Shown piece after piece: positions 213 to 26,087 of a stretch of 28,322 nucleotides of DNA (position 1 is its first letter; every line of letters starts with the position of its first letter). The notes below the pieces were generated by a model. That model saw only the letters and a program-made list of their open reading frames with translations, searched no databases and was not told the DNA's origin. The position numbers and the translations under genes were made by a program. Origin of the DNA: a virus; IMG/VR virus record IMGVR_UViG_3300032006_000065, positions 1 through 28,322 of that record; one strand, written 5' to 3'.

Positions 213-1253
213 ATGACGCCATCTAAAGCCGCTGCTCTTTCTACACGCAGCTTTGACTCATTCAACATTTTTAAAGATCCAGAATATATAACTGGTATCC
301 AAGGTTTAGGAACTGTGCAACCTCTCGTAGATGATCGAGAAGAAGGACTTGCATATTTTGGAATTAAAGAAGAAAATTGGAAAACATGTAAATGGACCGC
401 TACTGAAAAAGATTTTGAAAAAGGCTCTGTTCTATTTGATGAGATCCATGTTTTTGGAAGTAGAAAAAAAGAAAGGATGCATAAATTTATATCTCCTCGT
501 ATACAAATTATTCATGCGTCCAACATCTTAGTTGTAGACGATTACATTACAGATCCAAAAACTGGTAATTCAAAAAATATAATTGTCGGTGATTTATCAA
601 TGGAAGGTGTAAAAGAAGCTTTTGAAAAAGATCAAAAAGCTCAACAAAAAGCTTTACTAGATAACAAACCATATAACCGTCAATACTCAACTCGTACAAA
701 ATATCTAGTTAATATCCTGACCAAAGAAAACAAACCAGCTCACGAAGTACCTATGGTTTTAACTTTAAAAGGTCTTGCAAGTGTAGATCTTTCAGACAAA
801 ATTAAAGAATTTCAAGTGAAAATGGATAAATGTCTAAGTGCTGCACAAGGTTTAGGTTCAGGAGTTAAATTTGATAAACGAGTTAAAGCGCTTTATGTAT
901 TTATTCCAACTTTGACAGCACAAATAAAAGGCTCAAGAAAAAATGAAATCTGTGCCGTTGAAAGCGTAAGATTACCTGAATATACCGATCAAGAATCAGC
1001 TCAAGCAGAAATTATCGAATTAACAGTCCCAGATGAAGCTAGAGAAAAAACTTGGGCACAACTTGAAGATAGTTTTTTAGGTGATTACATTAATAGACAC
1101 AGCGCACAAGAGGCAGCAAAACTCCATGGTGCTTATGGAATTGCTGAAGGAGTTCCAGCTTTATTACCACAAGGATCTGTCCAAGTTTTACCAGCAGAAC
1201 TTTCAAATAGAAAAGAAGATACAGGTGAACTAGAAGATGGTTTATTAGCCTAA
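213..1253 (+). CDS. Unidentified 346-aa protein of the replication block (possibly DUF5895-like)
   Basis: A complete soluble protein of mixed alpha/beta character, without signal peptide or membrane segment. Residues about 65-130 contain a strand-rich stretch (PRIQIIHASNILVVDD) that could be an OB-like or nucleic-acid-binding fold, but I see no catalytic motif. The overall look recalls a cyanobacterial and plasmid family named DUF5895; that is from memory and uncertain. It directly follows SSB and precedes the other replication genes, so a role in DNA replication or recombination is inferred from context only. No clear Shine-Dalgarno precedes the ATG. A structured RNA candidate begins 4 bases after the stop. 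Confidence 0.85.
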   Translation: MTPSKAAALSTRSFDSFNIFKDPEYITGIQGLGTVQPLVDDREEGLAYFGIKEENWKTCKWTATEKDFEKGSVLFDEIHVFGSRKKERMHKFISPRIQIIHASNILVVDDYITDPKTGNSKNIIVGDLSMEGVKEAFEKDQKAQQKALLDNKPYNRQYSTRTKYLVNILTKENKPAHEVPMVLTLKGLASVDLSDKIKEFQVKMDKCLSAAQGLGSGVKFDKRVKALYVFIPTLTAQIKGSRKNEICAVESVRLPEYTDQESAQAEIIELTVPDEAREKTWAQLEDSFLGDYINRHSAQEAAKLHGAYGIAEGVPALLPQGSVQVLPAELSNRKEDTGELEDGLLA

Positions 1254-1257
1254 AAAA

Positions 1258-1343
1258 GGGGGCAGTGGATGTGCAGTCTCATGGCTTTCTGTACCGAAAG
1301 GTTTAGGAGATGGGGATCTCCTATCATCCACTTAAGCCCCACC
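1258..1343 (+). ncRNA. Candidate structured RNA with closing helix and two inner hairpins
   Basis: Bases 1259-1263 plus 1264-1271 (GGGGC, AGTGGATG) pair with 1325-1332 plus 1336-1340 (CATCCACT, GCCCC). This gives 13 base pairs with only a three-base TAA bulge at 1333-1335. Inside lie two perfect hairpins: CTTTC/GAAAG at 1285-1300 with a six-base loop, and AGGAGA/TCTCCT at 1305-1322 with a G-rich loop. A single-stranded stretch at 1272-1284 remains, part of which (TCTC) could alternatively pair with GAGA in the second hairpin. It sits between a stop codon and a Rho-independent terminator. It is GC-richer than its surroundings. I could not match it to tRNA, hammerhead or the glutamine riboswitch. 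Strand is inferred from the terminator. Confidence 0.6.
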
Positions 1344-4848: not shown

Positions 4849-7425
4849 GTGTCATCTGAATCAACAGAATCAAACAAAAATTTTCCATTAAGTGCTGGGG
4901 AAATAAATTTAAACCTAATCCCTAAAGATTGGGCTTTAACTCCACTACGGGAAAAAAGAGCTTATGTTCCTAACTGGCCTTCTCAACCATACTCTATTGA
5001 GCAGATCAAACACGAGTTGAGTGAGGGAAATGCAACCGGCATAGGTTTAATCACTGGTCAGTGGTCAAATGAAGGTGGACTTTTATGGGTAGATATAGAT
5101 GGTGAAGAAGGAGAAGAAGCTTTAGTTAAAGAACATGGAGTACCTATATCAAAAATATTTCCAAAGACTTTAACTATATCTTCTGGCAAAAAAGGTAGGC
5201 AGAGAATGCTATTTAGTATTCCCGCTACAAAACTTTCTTTATTACCTGATAAAGCGACGATAAAAATAGGAATACCTGCTTTTGAAATCTTATTTAGATC
5301 AAGGCAAGGAGCAATAATGGGTAGCCACCCTGAGACTGAAGGGTACTTCACCACTGATCACGGAGGTTTTGAATATGCAAAAAACCCCCCTGAAATGCCA
5401 GATTGGTTATATAAAAAAATTACGGATGCTTACCCTACTAATAAATACAAAAGAAAAGCTAAAAATGGAATACTTACACAGCATATAAACCTTACCTACG
5501 AGGAAGGTTCTGAGTATTATCACGAAGAACTTTTAAGTGAAGCAAAAGTATATCTTGAATTCTTAAAGGAAGAAAGAGCAGTTGATTATGACGAATGGCT
5601 TACCATTGGTATGGCCTTACATCAAATAGATGATTCATTATTAGAAAACTGGATTGCGTGGTCACAAGAAGCTCCTAATTTTCAAGAAGGTGTATGTGAA
5701 AGAAAATGGAACAGCTTTGAAAGGGTACCTGGTGGCCCTGGGCCTGAAGGACATTGCGGTATTCATACACTAAGAGCTAAAGCTAAAGAAGACGGCTTTA
5801 TAGACCTAGGAGGCTGCGTTGTTGAATCTGCTGAAGCATTAGCCGATAAAGCAAAAACTATGTTTGAAGATGACGAAGAGGAAATTAAAGAAAGAAGTCT
5901 AAACAATGCATTGAAATCAATAATAGGTCAACCTACTGAAGAAGAAAGTGAAGATGTAGGTAGAAGAGTTAAAAGAAAAAATAAACCTAAAACACCTCCG
6001 TCGTCTGAATTAGCTGCCTATATTGCTCCGATGATATTTGAAACAGGTTGGAGATATGACCCTAAATTTGATGTATTTATGTTCTATCGAAGAAGTAAAG
6101 GAACATGGAGGAGAGAGGAATATAAAAATGAATTTAAATTATTTGTACAAGACCTATTTATAAATGAAAACGTACCAACACCAAGCGGCTATACCTCTCA
6201 TCTATTATCTGATGTCGTAAATTTAACTCAAGCGTATATAACTCATACCTACTGGGATGATGATCCAGATAAATTAGCATTTAACAATGGAGTTTTAGAA
6301 ATAAGTACAGGTGAATTTCTAGAACATAACCCAGAACATTACTTAACTTGGGGATTAGATTTTGAATACGAAAAAGACGCAGACCCTGGACCCATTATTG
6401 AATGGCTAACAAGAACACAATATGGAGATACAGAACGTGTACAAGTTTTACGTGCATGGTTAAAGTCCTGTCTTGTAGGTCAAGGTCATGAACTCCAAAG
6501 ATTTTTAGAAGTCATAGGACCAGGAGGTAGAGGTAAATCAACTTTTGCAAATCTCTGTTGTGCATTAGTCGGTAATGGTAACTATGCAAGTACAACATTA
6601 AACCAACTTGAACAAAGTCGTTTTGAAATTGCATCTATTAAAGGTAAACGACTTACTTTAATAAATGATTCAGAACGCTATGGAGGATCAGCTCAAATAT
6701 TTAAAGCCTTAACTGGTGGAGATAATTTACGCTTTGAAGAAAAAAATAAAAATGTTGGTGAACCATTCGTCTACACAGGAATGGTTATGGTCTGTGCTAA
6801 CGAGCCTATACAAACAACTGATAATACCTCTGGCTTAACACGACGACGGTTAACTGTTGAATTTAATCGACCTTTATGGGATAAGAACTCAGAAGCAAAA
6901 GAAATGATAAAACTCGAAAACGGAATAGTAAACGGGTTATGGAAGCATTATTTACCAGGGTTAGTTAACTGGGTTCTCTCCATGAGTACTCAAAGTATGC
7001 GTGAGTATCTCCTAGATACCTATGAAAAAGTACCCTCACTTAAAAAAGTAAGGAATGAGATTTTACTGAATAGCAACAGCATTGTTGAATGGCTCCAATC
7101 AGAAGTTGTCCATGATCCTAAAGCTGTATCGTCTGTAGGTAAAAAAATCCCTGCTGCAAAAGACGCAAAAGAAAGATATTGCAACAGCAATTTTCATCTT
7201 TATGCCAGCTATTGTTCTTATTGTGAAGATACAGGTTCAAAACCAGTAGGTCAGAAAAGATTTATATCTCTTCTTCTAGATTGTTGTCAAAATCAACTTG
7301 GACTAAAAAAAGTCTCTAGCTTTACTAAAAGTGGGAGACCATTTATTAAAGGATTAATAGTCAGGAATTCGGATCAAAAACACACTGCGGCACCTACCAT
7401 ACTGCCAGAAAATAAATTGGCATAG
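4849..7425 (+). CDS. Primase-polymerase fused to SF3 (D5/P4-type) helicase
   Basis: An 858-aa replication initiator of the phage/plasmid type. Residues about 20-190 form an archaeo-eukaryotic primase-like domain: VDID at 81-84 supplies the metal-binding Asp pair. The equivalent of the sugar-binding motif reads SSGKKGRQ at 111-118 and lacks the usual His. Residues about 230-315 resemble PriCT-2 (VDYDEWLTIGMALHQ). About 470-510 is a D5-N-like segment. The helicase core has Walker A GPGGRGKST (557-565), a Walker B-like TLINDSE (603-609), sensor Asn651 in CANEP and the arginine cluster TRRR (664-667). It starts with GTG. It would synthesise primers and unwind DNA, with SSB and the nuclease close by. 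Most lytic cyanophages use DnaG/gp41- or T7-gp4-type enzymes instead. Confidence 0.88.
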   Translation: MSSESTESNKNFPLSAGEINLNLIPKDWALTPLREKRAYVPNWPSQPYSIEQIKHELSEGNATGIGLITGQWSNEGGLLWVDIDGEEGEEALVKEHGVPISKIFPKTLTISSGKKGRQRMLFSIPATKLSLLPDKATIKIGIPAFEILFRSRQGAIMGSHPETEGYFTTDHGGFEYAKNPPEMPDWLYKKITDAYPTNKYKRKAKNGILTQHINLTYEEGSEYYHEELLSEAKVYLEFLKEERAVDYDEWLTIGMALHQIDDSLLENWIAWSQEAPNFQEGVCERKWNSFERVPGGPGPEGHCGIHTLRAKAKEDGFIDLGGCVVESAEALADKAKTMFEDDEEEIKERSLNNALKSIIGQPTEEESEDVGRRVKRKNKPKTPPSSELAAYIAPMIFETGWRYDPKFDVFMFYRRSKGTWRREEYKNEFKLFVQDLFINENVPTPSGYTSHLLSDVVNLTQAYITHTYWDDDPDKLAFNNGVLEISTGEFLEHNPEHYLTWGLDFEYEKDADPGPIIEWLTRTQYGDTERVQVLRAWLKSCLVGQGHELQRFLEVIGPGGRGKSTFANLCCALVGNGNYASTTLNQLEQSRFEIASIKGKRLTLINDSERYGGSAQIFKALTGGDNLRFEEKNKNVGEPFVYTGMVMVCANEPIQTTDNTSGLTRRRLTVEFNRPLWDKNSEAKEMIKLENGIVNGLWKHYLPGLVNWVLSMSTQSMREYLLDTYEKVPSLKKVRNEILLNSNSIVEWLQSEVVHDPKAVSSVGKKIPAAKDAKERYCNSNFHLYASYCSYCEDTGSKPVGQKRFISLLLDCCQNQLGLKKVSSFTKSGRPFIKGLIVRNSDQKHTAAPTILPENKLA

Positions 7426-25548: not shown

Positions 25549-25577
25549 TAGAAAAGTAACACTAATCGAGTCCTCAA

Positions 25578-26087
25578 ATGTGGAAACTAATCCCATTATT
25601 AATTATATTTAGTGCTCCATCAGCTCGTGCAGATCTGACCCACTCACTAAGTTCCAGCATCTCCCTAGACGTACATGGGGCAGCAACCGTTTCTGAACGT
25701 GTGGGGAGTTCATATTCTGTCTCTGGAAACAATATAAAAGTAGGTACAGGAAACAGCGACGTATTTGGAGGCTTAACAACTGGATCAGCTACAGCCGCAG
25801 CAACTATGAAGGCTGGTACGTATGAGATAAATACTTCGGGGTCGGCATTTTCGTTCTCGGAAAGTTGGCTCCAAGGGGACGGAATCCCAGCCATAGGAAG
25901 TGGTGTGGACGTCACCAGTGGGGTTGTGGCAGACATGCCGGCATTTGGAGAAACCACGACCCAATCCGGAGGTGTCGCAGGCACTTTAGCCGGTTCCATC
26001 TTAAGCTCTGGCGTTATGAGTTTAACTGCCGGAGGCGCAGGCACAACTGGGACGTCTCAATTTATTAGTACTATTTCCGTGAAATGA
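25578..26087 (+). CDS. Secreted beta-rich protein, 169 aa
   Basis: A signal peptide of about 18 residues (MWKLIPLLIIFSAPSARA, cleavage before D) is followed by a Gly/Ser/Thr/Ala-rich chain of short beta strands without cysteines. It resembles a secreted protein that recurs in T4-like cyanophages (from memory). The export signal indicates the periplasm or envelope of the infected cell rather than the virion interior. It is the first of three consecutive genes with signal peptides; its stop lies one base before the next ATG. Confidence 0.7.
   Translation: MWKLIPLLIIFSAPSARADLTHSLSSSISLDVHGAATVSERVGSSYSVSGNNIKVGTGNSDVFGGLTTGSATAAATMKAGTYEINTSGSAFSFSESWLQGDGIPAIGSGVDVTSGVVADMPAFGETTTQSGGVAGTLAGSILSSGVMSLTAGGAGTTGTSQFISTISVK

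Follow-up and report, generated by a model that had tools for sequence, protein, structure and literature searches.

What function is served by a compact, strongly folded sequence that lies between the stop codon of a phage gene and the terminator of that gene, and on which strand does it act? We examined this question for positions 1258-1343 of an IMG/VR virus record, analysed over its whole length of 28,322 bases (hereafter, the window). Judged by its sequence, the virus of the window is a member of the S-EIV1-like cyanophage lineage. The gene preceding the structure (213-1253, plus strand) encodes a 346-amino acid protein of the DUF5895 family (PF19247; Pfam E-value of 2.5e-7, over the cut-off) and carries the S-EIV1-type allele. 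This protein shares 40% identity with one of Synechococcus phage S-EIV1 and 51-54% with viral contig proteins (at most ~54%); the primase encoded at 4849-7425 is ~80% identical to viral contigs. A gene for 82 amino acids on the minus strand (1489-1737) converges on it and is conserved in relatives at 31-67% identity (tblastn, more than 50 loci); the convergent pair is kept in ~50 related loci. The plus-strand transcript has an intrinsic terminator at 1361-1396 (stem 1361-1389, then T7; -10.3 kcal/mol plus TTTTTTTA), and most relatives have a plus-strand terminator-like site at the corresponding place. The TAA stop of the 346-amino acid gene occupies 1251-1253 and four bases separate it from the structure, which agrees with the first-pass annotation both in this spacing and in the location between a replication-region gene and its terminator.

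The claim that the structure exceeds chance held up well. The minimum free energy of 1258-1343 is -37.1 kcal/mol compared to a mean of -26.2 for dinucleotide shuffles (z -3.05), none of 200 shuffles was as low, and inclusion of the terminator gives -49.4 (z -4.56). The element is also the lowest-energy stretch among 14,118 86-nt windows taken from both strands, a rank due in part to its 53% G+C content within a window of 36% G+C; the shuffle test controls for base composition. Next in stability within the window is a folding region at 25809-25970, within or opposite ORFs at 25574-26087. Stem P1 consists, as first described, of thirteen nested pairs interrupted by a three-base bulge. Its 5' arm (1259-1271) and 3' arm (1325-1340, including the bulge UAA at 1333-1335) form 13 Watson-Crick pairs with probabilities of 0.88-1.0, in an outer part where 1259-1263 pairs with 1336-1340 (GGGGC/GCCCC) and an inner part where 1264-1271 pairs with 1325-1332 (AGUGGAUG/CAUCCACU). 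An outward extension of the helix by AAAGG/CCUUU enlarges the element to ~1255-1346. Two perfect hairpins had been reported inside P1, of which P3 (1304-1323; 8 perfect pairs, GGGG loop, probabilities 0.76-0.89) was recovered, but the second, CUUUC-UGUACC-GAAAG (1285-1300), reached a pair probability of only ~0.06. The junction region to which it belongs (1272-1302, pair probabilities 0.06-0.9) holds competing small hairpins and favours ACC-GAAA-GGU (1293-1302; 0.7-0.9) and AGUC-UCAU-GGCU (1275-1286; 0.57-0.75), with UGCAG/CUGUA as a third option (~0.3). Likewise, the single-stranded strip thought capable of an alternative pairing can, by reading, reach the 5' arm of P3 through five pairs (GUCUC/GAGAU), but P3 itself holds at ~0.89. 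The element stem is symmetrical and palindromic, and the other strand forms a fold of almost the same stability (-33.6 kcal/mol, z -3.83). Both strands fold because all 13 pairs of P1 and all 8 of P3 are Watson-Crick, and their near-equality means that the fold alone cannot tell the intended strand.

The element matched no known RNA class, as the annotation had supposed. A covariance-model check against Rfam 15 returned no matches in the window at the gathering threshold and only chance-level matches in 1200-1420 at permissive thresholds (none above 20.4 bits, for a threshold of 60), and ARAGORN found no tRNA or tmRNA gene. Searches by blastn gave no relevant match in phage and plasmid collections, and blastn and nhmmer found no homologue in more than 200 fetched viral loci. 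Single-sequence covariance models detected no copy in 40 whole relative records and no homologue in the loci searched with model R1, and a core pattern with two free positions had no matches in viral contigs; one-sequence models and exact patterns have limited reach, and these results do not prove that relatives are absent. A protein-guided locus search returned nothing with the 346-amino acid gene alone and 80 loci with alignment A2, in none of which did blastn or nhmmer find the element. Several candidates were rejected. Both P1 arms at a gap of 40-65 occurred in 54 viral contigs whose sequence was unrelated by eye; the pattern CTGTACCGAAAGGTTT occurred in 17 contigs, chance-like on inspection (one in tRNA-Leu-like sequence), none of which matched model R1 above noise; and a 20-mer of the element had one match among genome contigs, in a Desulfovibrio MAG, which we took as chance. 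Since these searches turned up no relative, the most likely reading is a transcript-end element private to its lineage, rather than an established new class of RNA.

The slot after the DUF5895 gene has a varied content among the fetched related viral loci (designated by L-numbers): some leave it empty, some have a small ORF there, and another clade carries an unrelated structured RNA that is conserved. In the close relatives L003, L005, L006, L025 and L019 the stop codon is followed after ~25 nt by the plus-strand terminator, whereas in the window the terminator stem begins 110 nt past the stop codon; the extra ~85 nt correspond to the size of the element. Short hydrophobic ORFs of ~45 amino acids, by inspection apparently small membrane proteins, occupy the slot in L009, L010, L014-L018 and L070. 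In comparison with the relatives closest in backbone (L003, L006 and L072), DNA similarity sets in no earlier than 1367-1385, within the terminator or the T tail behind it, with L072 matching again from 1367; on the left side, similarity to L072 ends near 180. The gene, the element and the greater part of the terminator stem thus form one segment, 181-1384 with approximate boundaries, that has no blastn match in these relatives. We infer that this segment is an exchanged cassette, with which the data are consistent. A clean replacement of a DUF5895 gene is seen between L070:3182-4270 and L014:3327-4292, where flanks of 97% and 93% identity enclose DUF5895 proteins of 24% identity and the exchange ends less than ~50 nt from the stop codon.

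The structured RNA of the other clade lies in the same genomic slot as the window's element, between the DUF5895 stop codon and the terminator, but differs from it in sequence and architecture. It was located at L033:3580-3668, L034:3584-3672, L038:3615-3703, L041:3552-3640, L043:3598-3686, L055:4042-4130, L063:3634-3721, L076:4033-4123 and, in part, L030:3719-3791, and also in L219, L225 and L228. A hairpin GGAATC...GATTC is followed by the almost invariant TCTCTTACATA and then by a variable stem; the GGAATC-hairpin and CTCTTACATA are almost invariant throughout. Two pairs carry two-sided changes, a level reached by 12 of 500 shuffles, which gives modest support for covariation. It has no match in Rfam and possibly represents a novel small RNA motif of cyanophages. 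Homology of the window's element to this RNA was rejected, as the corresponding model (R2) was unmatched in the window up to E = 10.

Reading the minus strand brings out a feature that the first-pass annotation missed, as it did the palindromic symmetry of the stem and the unmatched segment 181-1384. The A6 at 1252-1257 reads as TTTTTT directly 3' of it, a possible U-tract, so that a GC-rich stem of -32.8 kcal/mol runs immediately into TTTTTT (tail TTTTTTAG). This is the strongest stem-plus-T site of the window, by ~10 kcal/mol, and a scan of this intergenic region showed no other site on the minus strand. The TTTTTT right beyond the stem makes the element a terminator candidate for the gene at 1489-1737. 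A T-tract of such grade starts at ~2.3% of the tested intergenic positions, and the coincidence of stem and T-tract is therefore suggestive rather than proof. The compact, short-loop hairpin of an ordinary terminator is missing on this strand: with an 82-nt branched stem and a ~50-nt junction, the element would be an atypical intrinsic terminator. A consensus terminator scan with loops of 3-8 detected nothing, and the same scan missed the plus-strand terminator, which has a longer loop. No comparable minus-strand terminator occurs at this place in any relative that has the convergent pair, so such a function is not generally required. The plus strand also folds better by 3.5 kcal/mol and has a GAAA tetraloop, features that would favour a plus-strand RNA over the minus-strand reading. 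A promoter scan found no consensus promoter just upstream of the 82-amino acid gene and no plus-strand promoter-like site in 1000-1500. A strong sigma-70-like promoter (TTGACA-16-TAAAAT, 11 of 12 consensus positions) is present at 1775-1802, preceding a plus-strand block that begins with a Gam-like gene (1963-2568).

Our preferred explanation, which we hold tentatively and at somewhat less than even chances, is that the element is private to its lineage and acts in cis at transcript ends, as a terminator or insulator on the minus strand and as 3' end protection on the plus strand. The near-perfect palindromic stem would serve the ends of both convergent transcripts. In minus-strand RNA, the GC-rich stem and U6 would form an intrinsic terminator for the transcript of the 82-amino acid gene, with a stop at the 346-amino acid stop codon that would keep antisense RNA out of that gene. 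In plus-strand RNA, the same sequence would form a compact structured 3' UTR ahead of the ordinary terminator at 1361-1396, which the plus strand retains beside the minus-strand candidate, and could shield the mRNA 3' end from nucleases. We infer transcription through the element in either direction, as well as termination and mRNA protection, from the arrangement of stem, T-tract and genes. To our knowledge, cyanobacteria lack Rho, and convergent genes in such hosts would therefore depend on intrinsic terminators.

Among the alternatives, the one that we consider next in likelihood, although we doubt it, is that the element is a palindromic insertion or recombination-junction sequence with no role of its own, which arrived with the exchange of the DUF5895 cassette or was left by it. 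Its location within 181-1384, the same kind of exchange between L070 and L014, its G+C content well above that of the window and the free variation of the slot all fit an inert insertion. However, neither a REP- or MITE-like repeat nor a mobile family is indicated, as there is a single copy in the window (probably only a genome fragment) and none in the 40 relative records; decaying debris would hardly be expected to fold so strongly, with GC-rich ends set right against a T-tract. We saw no clear target-site duplication, in flanks too short and AT-rich to judge. An ORF of 27 amino acids (ATG at 1269, end near 1352), open by inspection, could also occupy the slot, as small ORFs do in L009, L010 and L015-L018, but it bears no resemblance by eye to the ORFs of relatives, crosses a near-perfect palindrome and has no homologue, making a peptide gene very improbable.

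The remaining alternatives treat the element as a regulatory RNA. The first-pass annotation allowed for an independent or processed sRNA and for a ligand sensor, and nothing in our results shows either. A phage sRNA derived from the 3' UTR, either cut out of the 346-amino acid mRNA by a nuclease or transcribed from a promoter of its own, would end at the 1361-1396 terminator and pair with host or phage mRNAs via the junction strip 1272-1292. The site immediately past a stop codon and ahead of an intrinsic terminator, the strong fold with its slightly better plus strand and the AU-rich segment at 1347-1360 ahead of the terminator are all compatible with this, and the other clade's conserved RNA in the same slot suggests that a structured RNA is tolerated or used there. 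Nevertheless, with no homologue in viral loci, relative records, phages or plasmids and no plus-strand promoter-like site nearby, a trans-acting sRNA is possible but unsupported, and we regard it as unlikely. Less probable again is the broader proposal that the DUF5895 slot of S-EIV1-like phages exchanges structured 3' RNAs together with the gene, the element being one of several unrelated, allele-linked regulatory RNAs (here an sRNA or retroregulator). The sib retroregulator of phage lambda, a hairpin 3' of a phage gene and a potential RNase III substrate, offers another model, in which RNase III would cut the 3' UTR duplex and the ensuing decay of the 346-amino acid mRNA would limit expression. 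A stem of 13-17 bp beside an 8-bp hairpin right after the gene suits this model, and upstream-gene regulation by a 3' structure in a phage is cited in PMC2864571; but P1 is bulged, is shorter than two helical turns and is not conserved, and we consider the retroregulator improbable. A riboswitch-like ligand sensor appears the least probable of all, since a multi-branched fold with an internal junction is offset by the 3' UTR position, the lack of an expression platform, the absence of any Rfam relation even at permissive thresholds and the weakness of all the competing structures.

Finally, we compared the element with known systems. Like lambda sib, it is a phage hairpin 3' of a gene and a potential RNase III substrate, but its stem is shorter and bulged. 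The manA, wcaG and PhotoRC-II RNAs are structured RNAs of marine cyanophages that are included in Rfam, of which manA commonly lies ahead of metabolic genes, in potential 5' UTRs, and wcaG seems to control exopolysaccharide or high-light genes (PMC2864571); the window's element is likewise a cyanophage structured RNA, but without an Rfam match. The L17 downstream element, which comparative genomics revealed across Lactobacillales and Listeria (Weinberg et al. 2010, PMC2864571), resembles it in being a structured RNA immediately 3' of a coding gene and in the uncertainty of its strand, whereas the window's element is without a known relative. That paper describes regulation by a structured 3' UTR as highly unusual in bacteria, with precedents that include one in a phage. 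Should it prove to be a regulatory RNA, the element would be a rare example of an RNA from a 3' UTR within the replication module of a cyanophage, at a site where another clade of the lineage has an unrelated conserved RNA. Should it be a terminator or insulator, it would show how a phage of Rho-less hosts separates convergent transcripts. As it stands, the element is a well-folded orphan whose main use is as a target for transcript-end mapping. The intrinsic terminators of convergent genes that act in both directions differ from it in being short hairpins rather than a branched stem of ~82 nt with a large junction, and its plus-strand tail (ACCUUUAAUUAAUUU) is poor and is followed by a separate terminator. 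The element nevertheless shares with them a GC-rich palindromic stem between convergent genes, with an A-tract on one side that would give U6 on the minus strand.
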